A program made the position numbers and the translations under genes. Source: an uncultured Clostridia bacterium (GTDB lineage Bacteria > Bacillota > Clostridia > Lachnospirales > CAG-274). From it: 64,000 nt of DNA. The notes under the pieces were generated by a model. It searched no databases and was not told where the DNA came from. It saw only the letters and a program-made list of their open reading frames with translations. Shown here piece by piece: positions 9,324-60,446 of this stretch. Numbering within the stretch: the first letter of the stretch is position 1; every line of letters starts with the position of its first letter. The stretch is from the NCBI GenBank assembly GCA_949948985.1, contig CATLIG010000001.1, forward strand, positions 124,001 through 188,000, written 5' to 3'.

Positions 9324-9488
9324 TATAGTCAATCAACTTGAAAATGAGAAAAGGGAAGCGAGATAAAAATTATTTTTACAAAGCAGAATAATAAAAGTAT
9401 AGCCTCCGTCCTATGCCGACTGACAATAACGCGTGAAAAATAATTTTTAGCCGCCGAACTTATTCATTTTTCAAGTTGATTGACTATA
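9324..9488. mobile_element. Family A MITE-like element, copy A1 (165 bp)
   Basis: The ends are TATAGTCAATCAACTTGAAA and TTTTTCAAGTTGATTGACTATA. The interior holds imperfect inverted arms (ATAAAAATTATTTTT / AAAAATAATTTTTAGCCGCC). It fills the gap between divergent genes. Confidence 0.85.
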
Positions 9489-11107: not shown

Positions 11108-11488
11108 ATGGCAAAATTATCTATTGAAGAAATTATTGCGGCAGTTAAAGAACTTTCTGTTTTAGAACTTAACGATTTGGTAAAAGCCGCTGAGGAAGAA
11201 TTTGGCGTATCAGCCGCTGCCGGTATGGTAGTTGCAGCAGGCGCTGCGGCAGGTGCTGCTGACGCTGGTGAGGAAAAAACAGAATTTAATGTTGAGCTTA
11301 CAGAAGTAGGTTCTGAAAAGATTAAAGTTATTAAAGTTGTAAGAGAACTTACAGGACTTGGTCTTAAAGAAGCTAAAGAAATCGTTGACGGCGCGCCTAA
11401 ACTTGTTAAAGAGAGCGTAGCTAAAGACGATGCTGAAAACTGCAAAGCTAAACTTGAAGAAGTAGGAGCTAAAGTTACTTTAAAATAA
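11108..11488 (+). CDS. rplL: Ribosomal protein L7/L12
   Basis: The multicopy stalk protein that recruits translation factors. It is 126 residues: an N-terminal dimerisation domain ([24 protein letters not shown]), an Ala/Gly-rich hinge (about 36-52), and a C-terminal factor-binding domain with [20 protein letters not shown]. The ribosome site GGAGGAT precedes ATG 11108. No rpoB follows, in contrast to the common gene order; a terminator comes next. Confidence 0.97.
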
Positions 11489-11519
11489 TATAAAGTATAT
11501 TTACCTGTTTAATAAAGAG

Positions 11520-11545
11520 GGAGGCTAAAAAGCCTCCTTTCTTGT
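11520..11545 (+). terminator. Terminator of rplJ-rplL
   Basis: GGAGGCT-AAAA-AGCCTCC (11520-11537) is followed by TTTCTTG. Confidence 0.8.
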
Positions 11546-11592
11546 TGCGATAAATCTGTTAAACTGTAGGACTTCTTTTCGGATTATTCACC

Positions 11593-12468
11593 TCAAATTG
11601 AATTTACATAAACAACCCCGTCTTTATAATCAACTTTAATAATTCCTATCCTTTCAAGCGCTCTTAAAGAAACATAGTTAAAATTATTTTTAAAAACCGC
11701 TTCAACGGTTTCTTTTTTTCCGTCGGCAATTACCTCAATATTTTTGACCTCGTTATCCACAATAACCTCTTTTGTATTCTCGTCATATTCAACAGAGAAA
11801 CCAAGCCGTCTTAAAAAATCTGTCGTAAATAAATTTTTTCCATCAGCAAAATATCCGTCAACAGTTTCTTTTCTTCCGTTTAAAATAACGTTAATACTTT
11901 TTTTCATTTCAGAATCTCCTTTTTCTCCATCACTTTTATACTTTATTCCAAAATACCCACAGACAGCCATAGCGACCGATACAACGCAGTCATCAATAAA
12001 TAAATCACTTTTAAGAAGCTTAGCATCGTCAAAATTGCTTATAAAAGCCATTTCAATTAATACGGCATTCATTCTGGTGCCGTTTAAAACAGCTAAATCT
12101 TTTCTTTCCTTAATACCTCTGTTTTTTGTACCCAAATTATCAATAAGTGATTTCTGTACAAGCTCGGCAAAATAATTTTTTTCAAAACATAGAGTTTCAG
12201 TCCCTGATGCCTGAGAGTTTCCTGCTGAATTTACGTGAAAACTTATAAATAAATCAGCGTTTTTAGAATTAGCTATACGGCATCTTTCCCCAAGATTTAT
12301 ATAATTATCCGAAACCCTTGTAAAAACAATATCAAAACCCTGTTTTTTTAAGACCTCTCCCGCTTTAAGCGCAGTTTTAAGAGTAATATCTTTTTCTTTA
12401 ATTCCGTTTCCAACAGCTCCTGAATCTGTACCACCATGTCCTGCGTCAATACAAATAATTTTACCCAC
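11593..12468 (-). CDS. N-acetylmuramoyl-L-alanine amidase with a copper-amine-oxidase-like tail
   Basis: A zinc amidase (Amidase_3) that cuts the lactyl-amide bond between MurNAc and L-Ala. Zinc and catalytic residues are visible: His11 in DAGHGG, Glu25, His78 in SFHVNS, and catalytic Glu139 in LIEMAFISN. Residues about 188-291 form a separate domain with two repeats of a copper amine oxidase N-terminal type (NGRKETVDGYFADGKNLFTTD and DGKKETVEAVFKNNFN). Such domains are thought to bind the cell wall or partners. No signal peptide is present, as in some mother-cell or holin-exported amidases. With a GerS-like gene in the window, a CwlD-like cortex role is possible but unproven. Confidence 0.88.
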   Translation of the reverse strand: MGKIICIDAGHGGTDSGAVGNGIKEKDITLKTALKAGEVLKKQGFDIVFTRVSDNYINLGERCRIANSKNADLFISFHVNSAGNSQASGTETLCFEKNYFAELVQKSLIDNLGTKNRGIKERKDLAVLNGTRMNAVLIEMAFISNFDDAKLLKSDLFIDDCVVSVAMAVCGYFGIKYKSDGEKGDSEMKKSINVILNGRKETVDGYFADGKNLFTTDFLRRLGFSVEYDENTKEVIVDNEVKNIEVIADGKKETVEAVFKNNFNYVSLRALERIGIIKVDYKDGVVYVNSI

Positions 12469-20752: not shown

Positions 20753-22195
20753 CTATAATAAATCATAAACCTTTTTTATAAGAACGCATACTTCCGCTCT
20801 TGTAATCGGCTCGACAGGATTAAGTTTTTTTCTGTCATCACCGCTTACAATTCCCATACCTATAAAATCAGCCATATACTCTCTTGCGTAAGGCGAAACA
20901 AAATCCTCGTCAATGAAAGAATCCAAAATACTCAAATTACTTTTCTCAAGCTTTCCAAGTCTTTCAAGAATACCTGCTAAAACTGATATAACTTCTTGTC
21001 TTGTAATATTGTCCTTAGGCTTAAATTCCGTACCGGAAGTTCCTTTTACAAGCCCATATTTAGATACAGTTCCCACAGCGTCGGCATAATAATCCGATGG
21101 TTTAATATCTGAGTAAATATTTGTTTCCGGCTGGCCTTCTATTCCCGTAAAACGTTTTACCATAATCATAAAATCCGCTTTTGATGTAAAATCCGCTGGT
21201 TTAAATATTCTCCAGTCAACGCCTTTTACCACACCAATGTCAGCTAAAAATCCCACAGCCTCTTTAGCCCATGGAAAATCAGCCATATCTTTAAATTCAA
21301 TATTATCTCCCGACGGCTTTGGAGGATTAATCTCAAAATCAGGATAAGTAATTTCCTCAGTATCAGCCTCTGTCACATCTTCAGAATTTTCCTCTGTATT
21401 ATCATAAATGAAAGAACTCAAATTTTTTTCTATTGTATTTTCTGTTTGTGTTTCTGTAGTTTCTTCCTTACTTTGAAACTCTGTAGATGTTTCAGTAGAT
21501 ATCTCTGTAGCTTCAGAGGCGTTTTCCGTTTTTGGAGAACTTTCCGTATAAGAATTATTGCCTTTACTATCGTCACGGACATTTATAACAAAATTTTTTA
21601 CATACACAGGAATATTATTTTCACTGGAATCCGCTAAAATAAAATTATTATAACCGGAAATAGCTATATCCGATTTACCTGTCTCAATAGCTTTGAACTT
21701 TACGCTAAATAAAGTACCGTCGCCCTTTGCCTCCGCAAGTTCTCCCGAGCTGTTTGTGCAAAGTCCCGTAACAGAAAAACCATCGCTGTTTTTATTTGCG
21801 GGCAATTCGTTTTTAAGCTCGTCCCTTTTCACAGCCTTATTAAAAACCTTTGAATTATACTCATATTCTACTTCGCTGCTTTCAGATGACGCCGAAACAG
21901 GCTTAATAATATTTTTATCATAATCTATTTTAAAACTGTAAGAAGAAAATCCGGGATTGTTTATAATTTTAAAATCCACAGAGATAATCTCACCTTTTTT
22001 AAAAGTATCCTTGCCGACCTTTACAACAAGCTGAGGACTGTTTTTAAGAGTTTCGGAAACAACACTTTTTTTGTATTCCTTATCATAAAAAACAGTATCT
22101 ACTGTTCCGGCAAATACATTTACACAGGACATAAATAAAACGCCGGCAAAAAATGCCGAAAAACATTTTTTCATTTTCAGCATTTTTCGTATCAT
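20753..22195 (-). CDS. Cohesin-SLH surface anchoring protein
   Basis: A 480-residue exported protein. After a signal peptide (to about residue 30), residues about 53-205 match a cohesin fold (GEIISVDFKIINNPGFSSYSF, FKIDYDKNIIKPV, DGTLFSVKFKAIETG). A Thr/Ser/Glu-rich linker (about 210-300) leads to three SLH domains (about 305-480; for example ITRQEVISVLAGIL and ITRAEVCVLIKKVYDLL). SLH domains attach to pyruvylated wall polymers, and cohesins bind dockerins. The protein therefore looks like an anchoring scaffoldin with one cohesin. It lies 12 bp after a paralogue of the same design. The binding partner is not in the window. Confidence 0.85.
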   Translation of the reverse strand: MIRKMLKMKKCFSAFFAGVLFMSCVNVFAGTVDTVFYDKEYKKSVVSETLKNSPQLVVKVGKDTFKKGEIISVDFKIINNPGFSSYSFKIDYDKNIIKPVSASSESSEVEYEYNSKVFNKAVKRDELKNELPANKNSDGFSVTGLCTNSSGELAEAKGDGTLFSVKFKAIETGKSDIAISGYNNFILADSSENNIPVYVKNFVINVRDDSKGNNSYTESSPKTENASEATEISTETSTEFQSKEETTETQTENTIEKNLSSFIYDNTEENSEDVTEADTEEITYPDFEINPPKPSGDNIEFKDMADFPWAKEAVGFLADIGVVKGVDWRIFKPADFTSKADFMIMVKRFTGIEGQPETNIYSDIKPSDYYADAVGTVSKYGLVKGTSGTEFKPKDNITRQEVISVLAGILERLGKLEKSNLSILDSFIDEDFVSPYAREYMADFIGMGIVSGDDRKKLNPVEPITRAEVCVLIKKVYDLL

Positions 22196-22207
22196 AAAAA
22201 AACCTCC

Positions 22208-23599
22208 TTAATTATTTAACACATCATAAACTTTATCAATAATAACAGCCATTTCCGCACGGTTAATAAATCCTTTTGGGTTAAGTCTGCCATTGTCGTC
22301 ACCGTTTACAATACCCAAATTTACAAGGTCTGACACTGCTGATACAGCATAAGGCGAAATATCTTCCTTATCGGCAAAACCACGCAGTACTGACTCGCTT
22401 GCTTTGCTATTTTTTCCTGCCATATCAAGGACCCTTGAAAGAATAACCATAACATCTTGCCGTGTAATATTGTTTTTTGGCATAAACATTCCGTCTGAGC
22501 CTTTTACAATACCGATACCGCTAGCCATAGAAACAGCCTTCGCGTAATAAGCAGAATTTTCAACATCAGAGAAAGTATTGTCAAAATCAGCGTCAAGACC
22601 TAAAAGCCTTGATATTACAATAACAAAATCCGCTCTGTAAGTATAAGCTTTAGAATTAAAAATACCATCAGCAACACCGTTAATAATTCCTAAAGATGAT
22701 AATTTGTTAATAGAACCCTCTGCCCACGGCACATCTTCGGTATCATAAAAACTTTTAACCTGTAACATATCTTTTGGAAGATTTATTTTAAATCCATTTT
22801 CATCATCAATTTTGTTTGTTTGCACTTCATTAGATGTAGATTCCGTAACATCTTCGCTGTCAGTGTCATCTTCAGTTGTTTTCATATTATTTATGTCATC
22901 ATCAGAAATTGTGCTTTCTTTATCGGCAGTTTCTGTTGTAACTGTATTATCTTCATTTTCATCAGTATCCGACGAACCCGCTGTTACACTTATAGAAGCG
23001 TTTTCAACATAAGTCGGAATATTTTCGCCATAGTTGTCACATAAAATAGTTCCCAATCTGTCATAAAGTTCAATATTCGCTGTGCCTTTTCCCACAGCCT
23101 TAAAATTAACCCTAAAAAGTATTCCGTTATCATCAGTTGTAGCTATATCTCCTGCCTCAAGCAAAAAATTCGTGTAAAAAAAAGGCTTTTTATATTCACT
23201 TATATCTATTGCCGAATTAATACCGTTGGTGTCAACAGCGGCTCTTCCCCCTGCATATGTAACCTGGGCTACGCTGTCCATTTCACTTTCATTTCCCTTT
23301 ACAGGCAAAATTATATTAGTATCAAATCCAACAGTAAAGCCAAAAGCAGCAAACCCTGTATTATTTTTAATAATAAAATCAACGTAAAAATCATCGCCCA
23401 CATTAACAGAATCTTTTGACGGAACTACGGAAATAGTTACAGCACTATCTCTTGCCCCGCTGACCTCTGATGAGTCCCCATTTTCATCAAAATAAACAAC
23501 ACCAGAACTTTCGGCTAATACATTTGATATATTCATATAAGGACAAAGACAAAACACAGCCGTTGCCAAAGCAAAAAATCTTTTAATACTCTGTTTCAT
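22208..23599 (-). CDS. Cohesin-SLH surface anchoring protein (paralogue)
   Basis: A 463-residue protein with the same layout as its downstream neighbour: signal peptide, cohesin-like domain (about 55-205, with GDDFYVDFIIKNNTGFAAFGF and NGILFRVNFKAVGKG), an acidic Thr/Asp/Glu linker, and three SLH domains ending in INRAEMAVIIDKVYDVL. The two genes form a tandem duplication and a likely operon, with this one first. Sequence between the two cohesins has diverged, so they may bind different dockerins or have split roles. Confidence 0.85.
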   Translation of the reverse strand: MKQSIKRFFALATAVFCLCPYMNISNVLAESSGVVYFDENGDSSEVSGARDSAVTISVVPSKDSVNVGDDFYVDFIIKNNTGFAAFGFTVGFDTNIILPVKGNESEMDSVAQVTYAGGRAAVDTNGINSAIDISEYKKPFFYTNFLLEAGDIATTDDNGILFRVNFKAVGKGTANIELYDRLGTILCDNYGENIPTYVENASISVTAGSSDTDENEDNTVTTETADKESTISDDDINNMKTTEDDTDSEDVTESTSNEVQTNKIDDENGFKINLPKDMLQVKSFYDTEDVPWAEGSINKLSSLGIINGVADGIFNSKAYTYRADFVIVISRLLGLDADFDNTFSDVENSAYYAKAVSMASGIGIVKGSDGMFMPKNNITRQDVMVILSRVLDMAGKNSKASESVLRGFADKEDISPYAVSAVSDLVNLGIVNGDDNGRLNPKGFINRAEMAVIIDKVYDVLNN

Positions 23600-23630: not shown

Positions 23631-23795
23631 TATAGTCAATTAACTTAAAAATAAGTAAGTTCGGCGGCTAAAAATCCTTTTTGCCGTGTTGCCGTCGGTT
23701 GGCATAAGCATTCGTCTATGCTCTCCCTCCGCCGACTTGCAAAAATAATTTTTTAACTCGCCTCCTTTTTCTCATTTTCAAGTTGATTGACTATA
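23631..23795. mobile_element. Family A MITE-like element, copy A2 (165 bp)
   Basis: TATAGTCAATTAACTTAAAAAT at the left and CTCATTTTCAAGTTGATTGACTATA at the right. The interior is the short type, oriented opposite to copy A1. Confidence 0.85.
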
Positions 23796-23868
23796 CTTAC
23801 AGAAATTCACAAAATTTTAAAAGCAAAATAATAAGACAAGTTTTTTATTGTTTCGCTATATATTAAAA

Positions 23869-23925
23869 AAACCGTCGCAATATAAAAAACGCCATATGGA
23901 CTTTTTTTTAATATTGCGACAGTTT
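23869..23925 (-). terminator. Terminator of the rpmG-rplA operon
   Basis: CTGTCGCAATAT and ATATTGCGACGG (minus strand) form a stem followed by TTTTTTT. Confidence 0.8.
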
Positions 23926-23934
23926 CAAAAAATA

Positions 23935-41014: not shown

Positions 41015-42589
41015 TTAATTAGCGTAATTTACAATATGCTCTGTATAATCAATCAGGAGGTCACTTCTCATATATGTAACAAGTCTGTTTACAAAAGCCG
41101 CCGCTTCCGCCTTTGAAACAAAGCTTTTGGGTCTGAAATTTCCATCAGAGTCGCCGGCTATAATTCCAAGCCTTGCCGCCGCGTAAACCTCTTTGGCTGC
41201 CCAGTCGGCAATATACTGATTATCGGTAAAAGGCGTAATGGAAGTAGGCTCAAGACCAAGATTCTCAAGACCTAAAGTTCTTAGTAAAATAACAATCGCC
41301 TCTTGCCTTTCAATAGGTGAGTCCGTATAAAAGTGACCATTATCCCTTCCTACGGCCAAACCGTTTTTATATGCCGCCATAATATATTTATACTCCGGTC
41401 TGTCCTCTGTGACGTCAGGGAATACAATATTAACAACCTCCGACTTTTTCTTGCTTGTTTTCTTTTTGGTTTTTGAATCGTCCTCAACAGGCAATTTTAC
41501 GGCTTTCACAAGCATACTTACAAACTGACCCCTTGTTATGGACTGACTCGGCTGATAAAATTTAGGCTCTCCGTCAAGTATTTGCATAGCGAATAATTTT
41601 TTAATATCACCCTCGGCGAAATGCCCTTTTAAAAATCCCAAATCAGGAGCTATAAGCTGTTCAAAAGTATTAAATGTGTCAATAGACTCGTTTCCTTCCG
41701 TAGGAACGGTATATGTATTGCCCATAGGCATTGAGTAAATATTATAGCTTAAACCGCTTCTGTTCTGCATAACCTCTCTGTAGTTTCCTGAAAAACTAAT
41801 AGCCGTAGGCTCGTTTTCCGAATACTGTAAGGTTTTTCCCACAGAAACACTCGGTCTTATCTGATACTGCATCTGCCATGAATCCGTAGTGACTGTTCCG
41901 TCAATTCTGTGAGTTTCCGTAGAAGACCACGCACTGTCATATCCGTAGAAAGTTCCGGAAAGCTCCCATACTACCTTATTTCCCTCATTTGTATAAACAG
42001 CCTTATGAGAAATATCCCCTTTGTAGTAAGTTACTCCGGGAGTATGTGACTCAATAACGGAAATATTTGACTCGGACTGTCTGTTGTCAATAGTATAGGC
42101 AACTTCATTTATAGTCATAGTTTCTTTCCAGTCATTAGGTTCGTCTATTTCGTAATCCTTTATTACTTGATTGCCCTCTTTACGATAATTTACCGTATAT
42201 TTTATTTTTCTGTCAATAACGTTTCCGGGTGTCGTAGCGTCTGTTGATTTAATAGTATACTCAACATCAAATGTATCAGCCTTTTTTTCTTCACCTGCTT
42301 TTGAGTTTCCGCCGGATTTTTGTTTGCTCTCGACAGTCATAAGACCTTCGAAAGTTGTCGGAATACCCGTCAGAAACATTTTTTCTTTATATACCGCCTC
42401 AAACTCATCATCACTTTTTTTGCTGCCCTGCTGTTCAAGCACAAGCTCTGTTGTTTTGGGAAGCTTTCTTCCAGCTGAAATTCCGCCGAAAAAACCAAAA
42501 TCACCCACATCAGCAAAAACAGGGAAACTCATAATAATTATCATTATGCCGAAAACCCCCAAAAAAGCTGACAGCTTAAATTTTTTCAT
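41015..42589 (-). CDS. SLH-domain surface protein
   Basis: A 524-residue exported protein: signal peptide (about 1-26), a beta-rich domain of unknown type (about 35-300, with GGNSKAGEEKK and a Thr-rich region), and three SLH domains near the C-terminus (about 330-520; ITRGQFVSMLVKAV, IERQEAIVILLRTLGL, VSKAEAAAFVNRLVT). SLH repeats hold it in the S-layer. The middle domain gives no clue to a substrate. The next gene upstream (42921) is also SLH-bearing but has the SLH repeats at its N-terminus. Confidence 0.85.
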   Translation of the reverse strand: MKKFKLSAFLGVFGIMIIIMSFPVFADVGDFGFFGGISAGRKLPKTTELVLEQQGSKKSDDEFEAVYKEKMFLTGIPTTFEGLMTVESKQKSGGNSKAGEEKKADTFDVEYTIKSTDATTPGNVIDRKIKYTVNYRKEGNQVIKDYEIDEPNDWKETMTINEVAYTIDNRQSESNISVIESHTPGVTYYKGDISHKAVYTNEGNKVVWELSGTFYGYDSAWSSTETHRIDGTVTTDSWQMQYQIRPSVSVGKTLQYSENEPTAISFSGNYREVMQNRSGLSYNIYSMPMGNTYTVPTEGNESIDTFNTFEQLIAPDLGFLKGHFAEGDIKKLFAMQILDGEPKFYQPSQSITRGQFVSMLVKAVKLPVEDDSKTKKKTSKKKSEVVNIVFPDVTEDRPEYKYIMAAYKNGLAVGRDNGHFYTDSPIERQEAIVILLRTLGLENLGLEPTSITPFTDNQYIADWAAKEVYAAARLGIIAGDSDGNFRPKSFVSKAEAAAFVNRLVTYMRSDLLIDYTEHIVNYAN

Positions 42590-42920: not shown

Positions 42921-45900
42921 TTATCCTTCAACAAGTATAATATAACCTGTAACTGTCATTCCTCCGTCAATTCTTGAAGGCAGGTTATCAGTAAGTACCC
43001 TAATCTTATCGCCTTTTTCAATTTCGGAAGCACCGATAACTTTGTTGTTTTTAATTATAATAGCGTTTACAGGTACAGTAATATTCGCACTGCTGTCCGC
43101 ATAACTCACATCATCCCAGTTATAACCTTTGTTTCTGAGATATGTGCTGTTTTTAATGACAATATTAGGAGTCGTAGTTACATTTTCTCCTTCGTTTTCT
43201 CCGCCGTTTTCGTCCCCGTTGACAGCCGTTCCGATAGATACGACTTCTCCTCTTACAGAGTCCTTAGCATAAGGCGAATCAACAACGTGGGTTGCTCTTG
43301 TTCCATCAGAAACAATATTGTAAACCTTGCTTATTGCCGAGCCTGACGTTGTATATCCAATAAAGTTATCCATATTTGATATACCGTTCTCATCTATATA
43401 CATAGTACTGCTGTCAATCTGGAAAGTTCTTTCCACAGGAGAATAAACCCATTTATTTCCTGTAAGAATACCAGTTGATTTAAGACTGAAACTCTTGCCC
43501 TCGTCAACACTTAAAATTCTTCCTCGTCCTATCAATACACCGGAAACGTCAGGTTGGTCATAAATATCCACAACAGCCGCTTTATTGTTTCCGTTTAAAA
43601 CAACTCTGGCATAATCAGGAATCATAATATTCTGACCTGTCACAAGTCTGCCGTGACGTCTTACGATAGTACCGCTGTCAGTGGAAATAAGTCCCTCTTT
43701 TGATGATATGTTAAAGTTTCCGGCTCCGTCGGCATTAATAATTGTATCAGCGTCAAGTATGTCATCTCTGCTTGTTCTGAAAGAAACCATAGCAACTTTT
43801 TCACCGCTGTAATTATTCTCAAGGGCAACGTATACGTCATTGTCAGCGTGTTTTAAATACCTCATAGCATAATCCAAAGAAATTTGCTTGCCCTCGTAGT
43901 AAAACTCAATATCATTGTTAGCTATGCTTATATCTTTTACATTCATATAGTCAGTCCAGCCTTTTTTAGTAAGAGTATAGGCGTCCTGAATTGATATTTT
44001 ATTTTGAATATTGTTTATAGCCCCAAGCTGGCCTTTTATAATTGTGTTAATTTCGTGACCTGTTCCCTCAACAGTAATTTCCTTGACTGATTCCATAACA
44101 TATCCCGGAGATAAAATTGCCTGGTTTACAAGTATTTTAACCCAGTCACCGGCCTGAAGCTCACTTTGCTCTATAGGCTTTCCCGCCTTGGAAGCGAATA
44201 CGTCGTCAGCCACGTCAAACCATGCCGTCTGGCCATTTTCATACTGAAGCATAAGCTGGTTTACGCCTGTACCATCGTTTACATAGCTGTTTACTTTTCC
44301 GTATTTCATTATGTAATTAGGAGAAGCACTTATACTCTCAATTACATCAGGGTCATCTTGAGATGTTCTTATAAATACAATGTCACCCGGCTCAATGCTT
44401 GATATATGAGAATCTCTTGGGTCATAGGCTCCTGTCGGAAACATCTGGTCAAGATAGCCTGTTTCATCATCAAGATCATAATATTCCTGTTTTTCAACCT
44501 CCGTCTGGTCGGCATAATAATTTTTAGTAACCTCGTTTCTGTTATTGTCAATAACTGTAAGATAACCATACGCTGTATTATTTTCAACAACAATACCTCT
44601 TATCTCGTTTCTTAAATTCATATCTCCAACATACTGTACATCGTCCACAGTATCGTTTACTAGTGTAAGTTTTACTGTACTGCCATAAGGAAGAGCCGAA
44701 TTTAAATATCTTTTCTCACCCATTATAATATAATTTTCACTATTTTCATCAGTTCCGTAAAGACCGTTTACTATAGGATAAGAAAATCTTTTTCCAAGAT
44801 TGTCAATAATATGAATCTGACCGTTTTCATAGTCAATTTCCATAAGCTTTCCGGCAACATCTTTTCTTGTAAGACCTCCTGTTTTCTTTACAAAAATAAT
44901 TTTAGGTCTTTGATTTTGCGAATTTTGATTAGCGTTCTGACCCGCTCCTCCTGTACTTTCACTTTCATCAGGGACAGGATTTGTCGTAAGGTCAGCCGTT
45001 GTTATCTGAGCGGTATTTCCTCCTGTCTGATTTTTCTGAACAATATATTCTATTTGGTCACCCTCATGTAAAGATGTAAGGCTTGAAATACTTCCGTTGT
45101 TATAAACAACAGTGTCCGCGGCTTTATCCTGAGGAGAGCCGCTGTCTCTCATCTGAAACTGCAATACGTCTATTTTTCCGTCCATATTTCTTATGTAAAT
45201 ATTTCTCCATAAGCTCGCCGCTCCTGTCTGTGAAAGCTGAGCGTCCTGTACACCGCCTACAGTGCCGGTTTTTCTTTCAAGATTAGCCGACTGGAAATAT
45301 ACGTTGTCAAGCTTTGAGAGAATTTGAGCCATTTCCGCTCTTGTAAGCCTGCCCTTTGGGTTTATTTTTCCGTCTGAACCGCTTAAAATACCATTAGCGC
45401 ATAAAAGTTCTAAAGACTGAGCGTATAAAACATCGACAGATGTCCAGTCGGAAAACTTGTACATACTTTGCTGTGAAGTTCCCGTAACGTTTAAGACATT
45501 TGCGTTCATAGTTGAGATGCCTTTTACAAGCCAGTCCGCCACACGCTCTCTGCTTGCGGGAGCGGCTTTAAAAAATGCCGTCTGAGGGTTCAGAGTATTT
45601 TGGTCTTCCACAAGAGTGTCAAGATATTCCTGTTCCGTAATAAGACCGTTTTCCTGGGCAAGACTTAAATAACCGTTAGCCCATGTAGGGAGCACGGAAT
45701 TATACTGCGGACTTGTAGCGGCAAGTTCCGCCGCTCTTGTCTGGGCAGCGTTTTCAAGACCCATAACACGTAAAACAAAAGCTATAGCCTCCTGATTTGA
45801 AACTGTATCATTAGGGCTGAATTTACCGCTGTAACCCTTTACCATATCGTAAGCTCCGGCGCGTGTAACCGCCTCCTTAGCCCAGTGACTGGTAGCCACG

Positions 45901-46094
45901 TCACTGAAATTCAAATTATCAATAATATCCCAGCCTTCCGAACGTCCTACATAAATATTCTCAACAGGGTCTGTAAAAACCTTTGTGTCTGTCAGTGCGA
46001 ATACGTTTACACCGCCAAATGGAAGCATAACGCACGACAACACAATAGAAATAACTTTATTAAAGACCGATTTTACAAAAAAAGCTTTCTTCAT
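42921..46094 (-). CDS. Large SLH-domain protein
   Basis: A 1057-residue exported protein with a signal peptide (about 1-34), three N-terminal SLH domains (about 55-270; VSNQEAIAFVLRVMGL, then MNANVLNVTG and LTRAEMAQILSKLDN), and about 780 residues of beta-rich sequence. Recurring short barrels occur in it, for example KRFSYPIVNGLYG, GKVNSYVNDGTG and GAINNIQNKISIQDAYTL, with ends such as SLKSTGILTGNKW. No catalytic motif is evident. It could be a structural S-layer protein. Its length and N-terminal SLH position set it apart from the neighbours. Confidence 0.85.
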   Translation of the reverse strand: MKKAFFVKSVFNKVISIVLSCVMLPFGGVNVFALTDTKVFTDPVENIYVGRSEGWDIIDNLNFSDVATSHWAKEAVTRAGAYDMVKGYSGKFSPNDTVSNQEAIAFVLRVMGLENAAQTRAAELAATSPQYNSVLPTWANGYLSLAQENGLITEQEYLDTLVEDQNTLNPQTAFFKAAPASRERVADWLVKGISTMNANVLNVTGTSQQSMYKFSDWTSVDVLYAQSLELLCANGILSGSDGKINPKGRLTRAEMAQILSKLDNVYFQSANLERKTGTVGGVQDAQLSQTGAASLWRNIYIRNMDGKIDVLQFQMRDSGSPQDKAADTVVYNNGSISSLTSLHEGDQIEYIVQKNQTGGNTAQITTADLTTNPVPDESESTGGAGQNANQNSQNQRPKIIFVKKTGGLTRKDVAGKLMEIDYENGQIHIIDNLGKRFSYPIVNGLYGTDENSENYIIMGEKRYLNSALPYGSTVKLTLVNDTVDDVQYVGDMNLRNEIRGIVVENNTAYGYLTVIDNNRNEVTKNYYADQTEVEKQEYYDLDDETGYLDQMFPTGAYDPRDSHISSIEPGDIVFIRTSQDDPDVIESISASPNYIMKYGKVNSYVNDGTGVNQLMLQYENGQTAWFDVADDVFASKAGKPIEQSELQAGDWVKILVNQAILSPGYVMESVKEITVEGTGHEINTIIKGQLGAINNIQNKISIQDAYTLTKKGWTDYMNVKDISIANNDIEFYYEGKQISLDYAMRYLKHADNDVYVALENNYSGEKVAMVSFRTSRDDILDADTIINADGAGNFNISSKEGLISTDSGTIVRRHGRLVTGQNIMIPDYARVVLNGNNKAAVVDIYDQPDVSGVLIGRGRILSVDEGKSFSLKSTGILTGNKWVYSPVERTFQIDSSTMYIDENGISNMDNFIGYTTSGSAISKVYNIVSDGTRATHVVDSPYAKDSVRGEVVSIGTAVNGDENGGENEGENVTTTPNIVIKNSTYLRNKGYNWDDVSYADSSANITVPVNAIIIKNNKVIGASEIEKGDKIRVLTDNLPSRIDGGMTVTGYIILVEG

Positions 46095-47397: not shown

Positions 47398-47477
47398 GTT
47401 ATGCTCTTCCTCCGCCGCCTTGCAAAAATAATTTTTTGCTTGCCTCCTTTTTCTCATTTTCAAGTTGATTGACTATA
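47398..47477. repeat. Family A right half, copy A4, joined to other repeat pieces
   Basis: CTCATTTTCAAGTTGATTGACTATA ends the block; the left half is missing. It is followed by a family C right end (TTATTGAACAGGCCTA) at about 47485-47502. Confidence 0.6.
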
Positions 47478-49150: not shown

Positions 49151-49298
49151 TATAGTCAATCAACTTGAAAATGAGGCGAGCTAAAAATTATTTTTGCAAG
49201 ACGGCGGAGGTAGAGCGTAGCCGAATGCCTACGCCGGCAACACGTCAAAAAGGATTTTTAGCCGCCGAACTTACTTATTTTTAAGTTGATTGGCTATA
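49151..49298. mobile_element. Family A element, copy A5, inserted in D8
   Basis: TATAGTCAATCAACTTGAAAA and ATTTTTAAGTTGATTGGCTATA, 148 bp. Confidence 0.8.
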
Positions 49299-50544: not shown

Positions 50545-50708
50545 TATAGTCAATCAATTTGAAAAACGAATAAGTTCGGCGGCTAAAAATTATTTTTTCT
50601 GCATTATCGTCAGTCGGCATAGGACGCAGCTATGCTCCTCTTCCTCTGCCTTGCAAAAATAATTTTTATCGTACCTCCTTTTGTCTGTTTTCAAATTGAT
50701 TGACTATA
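50545..50708. mobile_element. Family A element, copy A7 (164 bp)
   Basis: TATAGTCAATCAATTTGAAAAA and TTTTCAAATTGATTGACTATA. The interior is of the short type. Confidence 0.85.
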
Positions 50709-51157: not shown

Positions 51158-51365
51158 TATAATCAATCAACTTGAAAATGAGCAAAAAGAAGCGAGATAA
51201 AAATTATCTTCGCAAGCCAGTGGAAAGAGAGCATAGCCGTAGCCTACGCCGACTGACTGGTACGCATAGGCGAGCAGCAAAGCGCAGCTTTGCAACCAGC
51301 CACTAACAAAGCGAAGATAATTTTTATCCACTGAACTTGTTCAATTTTTAAGTTGATTGACTATA
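51158..51365. mobile_element. Family A element, long type, copy A8 (208 bp)
   Basis: TATAATCAATCAACTTGAAAATGAG and TTTTTAAGTTGATTGACTATA. The long-type insert includes GCAAAGCGCAGCTTTGC and ACTAACAAAGCG. It lies next to the gdhA stop codon. Confidence 0.85.
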
Positions 51366-52966: not shown

Positions 52967-53181
52967 TATAGTCAATCAACTTGAAAATGAGAAAAAGGAA
53001 GCGAGATAAAAATTATTTTCGCAAGGCAGTGTAAGGAGAGCGTAGCCATAGCCTATGCTGACTGACTGGGACGCATAGGCGAGCAGCAAAGCGTAGCTTT
53101 GCGACCAGCCACTAACAAAGCGAAAAGGATTTTTAGCCACTAGCCGCTGAACTTGTTCAATTTTTAAGTTGATTGACTGTA
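52967..53181. mobile_element. Family A element, long type, copy A9 (215 bp)
   Basis: TATAGTCAATCAACTTGAAAA and TTTTTAAGTTGATTGACTGTA. The interior matches A8 and A10 closely, including AGCAAAGCGTAGCTTTGCG. Confidence 0.85.
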
Positions 53182-58436: not shown

Positions 58437-58644
58437 TATAGTCAATCAGCTTAAAAATGAGCAAAAGGAAGCGATATAAAAATTATTTTCGCAAGACAGT
58501 GGAAGGAGAGCGCAGCCGTAGCCTACGCCAACTGACTGGGACGCATAGGCGAGCAGCAAAGCATAGCTTTGTGACCAGCCACTAACAAAGCGAAAAGGAT
58601 TTTTAGCCGCTGAATTTGTTCAATTTTTAAGTTGATTGACTATA
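58437..58644. mobile_element. Family A element, long type, copy A10 (208 bp), with empty site nearby
   Basis: TATAGTCAATCAGCTTAAAAA and TTTTTAAGTTGATTGACTATA. The flanking sequence (AAAATTTAATTTCGCCTA and TCAGCAAAATCTGCACTTATC) is found uninterrupted at about 62606-62645. Confidence 0.9.
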
Positions 58645-59782: not shown

Positions 59783-60000
59783 CTTTCAGCACGAAACAAC
59801 AAAACAATTCCTTGATATATGGTTTTATAGTCAATCAACTTGAAAATGAGAAAAATTAGGCTGGCTAAAAATTATTTTTGCAAGGCAAAGTTGGGAGGAC
59901 ATATCCAAATGCCTATGCCAACCATCGGCAATACAACAAAAAAGATTTTTAACCGCCAAACTTACTTATTTTTAGGTTGATTGACTATATTTAATATTTC
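59783..60000. repeat. Family B remnant (B7) split by family A copy A11
   Basis: TTATGGCAATTCTCAGAACTTTCAGCACGAAACAAC ... CCTTGATATATGGTTTTA | A11 | TTTAATATTTC. The left and right pieces would join as a family B core. Confidence 0.55.
59826..59989. mobile_element. Family A element, copy A11 (164 bp), nested in B7
   Basis: TATAGTCAATCAACTTGAAAATGAG and TTTTTAGGTTGATTGACTATA. The interior is a diverged short type. Confidence 0.85.
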
Positions 60001-60282: not shown

Positions 60283-60446
60283 TATAGTCAATCAACTTGA
60301 AAATGAGAAAAATGAGGTGAGCTAAAAATTATTTTTGCAATGAGGCGGAGGGAAAGCATAGCCGACTGCCTATGCCGACCGACGGCAACACGGCAAAAAG
60401 GATTTTTTGCCGCCGAACTTACTTATTTTTAAGTTGATTGACTATA
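60283..60446. mobile_element. Family A element, copy A12 (164 bp)
   Basis: TATAGTCAATCAACTTGAAAATGAG and TTTTTAAGTTGATTGACTATA; upstream of ddl. Confidence 0.87.

Follow-up and report, generated by a model that had tools for sequence, protein, structure and literature searches.

Proteins A and B are the products of two adjacent genes at 20753-23599 of a 64,000-nucleotide stretch (the window) of an uncultured gut Clostridia bacterium of the CAG-274 family (GenBank assembly GCA_949948985.1, contig CATLIG010000001.1, positions 124,001 to 188,000 of the forward strand). They are best understood as SLH-anchored, single-cohesin anchoring scaffoldins of a pectin-oriented surface display, and not of a cellulose-degrading cellulosome (a reading to which we assign a probability of about 0.72). 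The cells probably carry a small surface display of enzymes directed mainly at pectin, because the genome combines two cohesin-SLH anchors with many dockerin-tagged pectin-degrading enzymes. An earlier interpretation made from the DNA letters (the sequence-only reading) had placed a tandem gene pair at just these positions, and open reading frames of 480 (A) and 463 (B) amino acids are found exactly there.

The cohesin domains

Each protein has three SLH repeats (Pfam, E 2e-25 and 7e-29 for A and B, respectively), joined by an acidic linker to a single cohesin domain that follows a basic and hydrophobic, signal-like N-terminus (judged by eye). The single cohesin per protein of the sequence-only reading is confirmed by different means in the two cases. 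In A a Pfam match that passes the curated cut-off (E 3e-7) agrees with the structural model; in B, for which the Pfam search gives no cohesin match, it is identified by its model, by structure search and by a profile of its orthologue group. AlphaFold2 models, for which domain-only alignments built from relatives served as input, have pLDDT 92.6 and pTM 0.88 for A, and pLDDT 93.9 and pTM 0.90 for B. Cohesins appear throughout the best 50 Foldseek matches listed from the PDB for each domain (4dh2, Coh-OlpC, is best for A, E 4.7e-8; 5lxv is matched by B, E 7.8e-8). The VIA-align lists likewise consist of cohesins, bar one low-ranked row for A, and are headed by cohesins of Clostridium (Acetivibrio) thermocellum (4fl4_I for A, Z 14.8 over 145 residues; Z 13.9 over 146 residues for B). 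Structural prediction had been proposed as a check on the sequence-only reading; as modelled, both domains have the cohesin fold, and no other fold is indicated.

The best PDB sequence match of a joint A and B profile is 3l8q, a type II cohesin of Acetivibrio cellulolyticus ScaB (E 7e-11). With the profile of the B orthologue group alone, type II cohesins also lead the PDB matches (E 0.0018-0.005), the leading ones being cohesins of anchoring proteins and of SdbA (2bm3, 2b59).

Domains of this fold might serve S-layer packing or adhesion in place of dockerin binding. Such roles may hold for non-cellulosomal archaeal cohesins, one of which (2xdh) is among the structural matches, and the cohesin of B lies below Pfam detection. 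We nevertheless regard this alternative as decidedly unlikely for A and B: the closest PDB sequences belong to type II cohesins from anchoring or adaptor scaffoldins, and dockerins are abundant in the genome and track cohesins over the 61 genomes compared below.

Dockerins and their cargo

A search of the genome for dockerins, the other check proposed, yields 21 matches by Pfam and 27 by a profile of the genome's own dockerins (taken together, about 26 loci), so dockerins are present. Pfam annotation of the proteins that carry them makes pectinases the largest functional class of cargo found: pectinesterase domains occur in five and pectate lyase in two (one of these with a pectin-binding CBM77), with GH5 in one more; some dockerin proteins are cohesin-bearing adaptors. 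Eighteen modules in the genome have two repeats, that is, the duplicated calcium-binding F-hand that is a type I feature, and five are single-repeat (half) units. Asp1 and Asp12 of the first calcium loop are intact in every module, and positions 10, 11, 17 and 18 carry similar residues in most. The anchoring scaffoldin pair of the sequence-only reading thus keeps its cohesin fold and gains its dockerins; that the cohesins of A and B bind these dockerins is our inference.

A profile of the window-type cohesin has 12 matches in the genome, corresponding to about 11 cohesin modules. Besides the pair, C9 has three matches, C31 has two and C5 has one; weaker matches lie in C86, C7, C125 and C116. 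Further cohesin-SLH proteins are located at C5 and C9. The cohesin proteins C86, C7 and C31 (L018 2007-4613, L019 4848-6905 and L021 11938-13905) each end in a half-dockerin with a single F-hand; those of C86 and C7 contain GLUG and Big_2 repeats as well, and the two cohesins of the C31 protein are of the same subfamily as those of the pair.

Several findings weigh against a display devoted to pectin and built on docking. Part of the dockerin cargo is unrelated to fibre (LRR in two proteins, flavodoxin in two, NEAT with FMN_bind in one). The second calcium loop lacks Asp or Asn at calcium position 1 in 7 of the 18 two-repeat dockerins. Finally, the genome has 55 SLH matches and many large SLH proteins; these need no cohesin, so that docking is not the sole display route and direct wall anchoring exists alongside it. 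The non-fibre cargo, in particular, raises the alternative that the cohesins of A and B hold mainly the NEAT/FMN heme-binding protein, flavodoxins and LRR proteins, with the pectinases carried by other cohesins (for which the proteins at C5 and C9 are candidates) or by SLH anchors. Sequence does not single out partners, and the size of the pectinase class counts against this alternative; we consider an assignment of the pair mainly to non-fibre cargo unlikely.

Some of the dockerin genes have features of their own. The NEAT/FMN_bind protein (L036 6063-8981; G000 C23) has two NEAT stretches, and its gene clusters with genes for an SLH-bearing Shp/NEAT heme-binding protein and a periplasmic-type binding protein, and with an iron-repressor-like gene. 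Both flavodoxin proteins with dockerins (L164 149-2017, C72; L029 6802-8877, C75) look secreted, and that of C72 has two half-dockerins roughly 320 residues apart. A dockerin frame of 891 codons (L028, around 11452-11805; G000 C1:27649) is interrupted by TAA within the dockerin, possibly as a pseudogene or through an assembly error.

Cellulosome hallmarks

Cohesin-SLH anchors, adaptors and one dockerin-bearing GH5 are also what would be expected if the pair anchored a classical cellulose-degrading cellulosome. This interpretation is largely refuted, and what probability it retains is very small. Of 25 family genomes searched, a single one has GH48, and it is not among the four of the genus; CBM3 is absent from all 25. 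The cargo is mostly pectin-directed, and the highest number of cohesins seen in one protein of this genome is two. The assembly is fragmented, however (235 contigs; in C116 and C100, parts of cohesins or dockerins lie where contigs end), and stretches with three cohesins occur in G001 and G002. By a strict definition, the system of this genome is not a cellulosome. The small surface complex for plant fibre that had been suggested accordingly stands in a narrower form: pectinesterases, pectate lyases and GH5 do carry dockerins, but the plant-directed part is mainly pectin-directed, the cellulose hallmarks are missing, and much of the cargo is not concerned with fibre.

Distribution, duplication and divergence

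The comparison covers 37 genomes of the family (this one included) and 24 of sister families. All 37 family genomes have at least one dockerin (1 to 60, median 17), as against 0 to 2 in the sister-family genomes, and at least five dockerins are found in 31 of the 37 and in none of the 24. Cohesins occur in 31 of the 37 family genomes versus 4 of the 24, and Pfam cohesin is present in 30 of the 31 family genomes with at least five dockerins. The five genomes of genus g7 each have one dockerin, and no cohesin match was found in them. It is possible, if doubtful, that all of this represents one general cohesin-dockerin surface docking system of the family, not a cellulosome, that accommodates pectinases, NEAT proteins, flavodoxins and half-dockerin adaptors, and in which the pair would provide two specificities.

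All four genomes of the genus keep the pair at the ribosomal rplA locus, where the next genus (G005) has one copy instead of two. In a tree (midpoint rooting), A and B form separate clades, that of B with moderate support (87/93), and the G005 copy falls outside both, so that the duplication is most simply placed within the lineage of the genus. The sequence-only reading had described the linkers and cohesins of the pair as diverged. In this genome the cohesins of A and B are indeed 28% identical, compared with 43% for their SLH regions; between orthologues the values are 42-58% and 61-76%. The cohesins have changed faster than the SLH anchors, which fits a change of partners without proving it.

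A second single-cohesin SLH protein is family-wide, forms its own clade and is represented in this genome at C5. Its gene adjoins a subtilase gene where checked. Both here and in another genus, the subtilase gene lies directly 5' of it (L168 4371-7590, L082 3155-6711), and at L082 a dockerin protein gene follows the two. Just 5' of the secE-nusG-rplKA-pair locus of G002 lies a gene (L088 826-3228) for an adaptor that combines two window-type cohesins with Big_2 domains, a full dockerin and a half-dockerin. This position, in one genome of the four, is a hint that adaptor and anchors work together.

The pectin-oriented display anchored by A and B may be pictured as follows. Both proteins would be secreted and tied to the cell wall by their SLH repeats, with the acidic, flexible linker raising the cohesin above the surface. 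Each cohesin would then take the dockerin of one secreted protein, or that of a small adaptor such as the C31 protein. Duplication in the genus was followed by faster divergence of the cohesins than of the anchors, possibly for different partners.

Gene arrangement and the upstream gap

The features of the window are collected in Table 1. The B gene is followed after 12 bp by the A gene on the same strand. Upstream (5') of B are rplA, rplK and nusG, and 3' of A are genes for a HAD-type phosphatase and then for the shikimate pathway (names inferred by sequence). As to the one operon that had been proposed, the two genes are probably a transcription unit of their own, separate from rplA, because a strong terminator-like hairpin lies 3' of rplA. 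Elsewhere in the window, 41015-42589 and 42921-46094 encode two further SLH proteins with no other Pfam domain, the best SLH match of the latter being close to its N-terminus.

The gap 5' of the pair is 336 bp long and contains, besides the hairpin, a 165-bp copy of a miniature inverted-repeat transposable element (MITE). The gap folds very stably (z -5.4), and a structured-leader riboswitch was considered and rejected: there is no Rfam match, the structure is missing in orthologues, and it is one copy of the dispersed MITE. The family (about 165 bp, with ends TATAGTCAATCAACTT/AAGTTGATTGACTATA, strongly self-complementary) has ten copies or pieces in the window and at least 40 copies in the genome. 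Copies are many in the genus and fewer in the next one, and among 13 genomes searched the family is confined to these two genera.

Table 1. Positions of the gene pair, its domains and the associated elements in the window
Feature	Position	Strand	Basis or remarks
Protein A, 480 amino acids	20753-22195	minus	Signal-like N-terminus, then a single cohesin, a linker rich in Glu, Thr and Ser, and three SLH repeats; encoded by the second gene of the pair
Protein B, 463 amino acids	22208-23599	minus	Layout as protein A; first gene of the pair
SLH repeats of A (three)	20756-21295	minus	Pfam
SLH repeats of B (three)	22211-22750	minus	Pfam
Cohesin of A, as modelled	21560-22108	minus	Pfam, AlphaFold2, Foldseek, VIA
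Cohesin of B, as modelled	22964-23509	minus	AlphaFold2, Foldseek, VIA, group-only profile; below Pfam detection
Terminator-like hairpin with T run, between rplA and the pair	23868-23926	minus	Folding z -6.0; sequence
MITE copy in the gap	23631-23795	minus	Outside the proposed mechanism; absent at orthologous sites
MITE copy or piece	9329-9477		
MITE copy or piece	47400-47472		
MITE copy or piece	49156-49287		
MITE copy or piece	50562-50703		
MITE copy or piece	51163-51257		
MITE copy or piece	52972-53045		
MITE copy or piece	58442-58536		
MITE copy or piece	59831-59978		
MITE copy or piece	60288-60435		

Relation to known systems

OlpA, OlpC and SdbA of C. thermocellum are single-cohesin cell-surface anchors. 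They are the nearest single-cohesin examples and have the cohesin and SLH layout in common with A and B; the cohesins of OlpA (3ul4) and OlpC (4dh2) are the top structural matches of A, and among PDB sequences B is matched best by the cohesins of SdbA and other anchoring proteins. On the other hand, identity to A and B is low (10-20%), and A and B are tandemly duplicated beside ribosomal genes in a genome that has neither GH48 nor CBM3. ScaB, whose type II cohesins provide the best sequence-profile match, is a multi-cohesin adaptor, whereas A and B each have one cohesin fused to an SLH anchor.

A 2024 survey of cellulosome bacteria defines SLH-anchoring scaffoldins as proteins in which an SLH domain is combined with one or more cohesins (PMC11557425), and A and B belong to this class. 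The survey is based on RefSeq genomes, metagenome-based ones being excluded (PMC11557425); the present lineage is seen only as metagenome-assembled genomes (MAGs), and may be missing from the survey because of that exclusion. Paenibacillus guangzhouensis (PMC11557425) is comparable in having SLH anchors and cohesin-dockerin adaptors with enzymes that are mostly not lignocellulolytic, but its dockerins are nearly all on cohesin proteins, while most of those described here are carried by enzymes and other cargo. In Ruminococcus flavefaciens, half-dockerins, which are non-duplicated, are reported to be functional in work cited in PMC8063739. Non-duplicated dockerins also occur here; in contrast to the R. 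flavefaciens case as cited there, they end cohesin proteins (C86, C7, C31), and the C72 flavodoxin protein has two separated halves. A search of the open-access literature found no report of the cohesin-dockerin system of this CAG-274 family, which is not proof of novelty.

Significance

Cellulosome biology so far rests on cultured cellulose degraders. Here, cohesin and dockerin recur across almost the whole of a gut family seen only as MAGs, in a pectin-centred form with partly non-carbohydrate cargo and in a genus without the cellulose hallmarks. If binding is as proposed, docking in animal guts would serve pectin, and perhaps redox and iron proteins as well, and the recently duplicated cohesin pair would be a case for studying how docking specificity splits.
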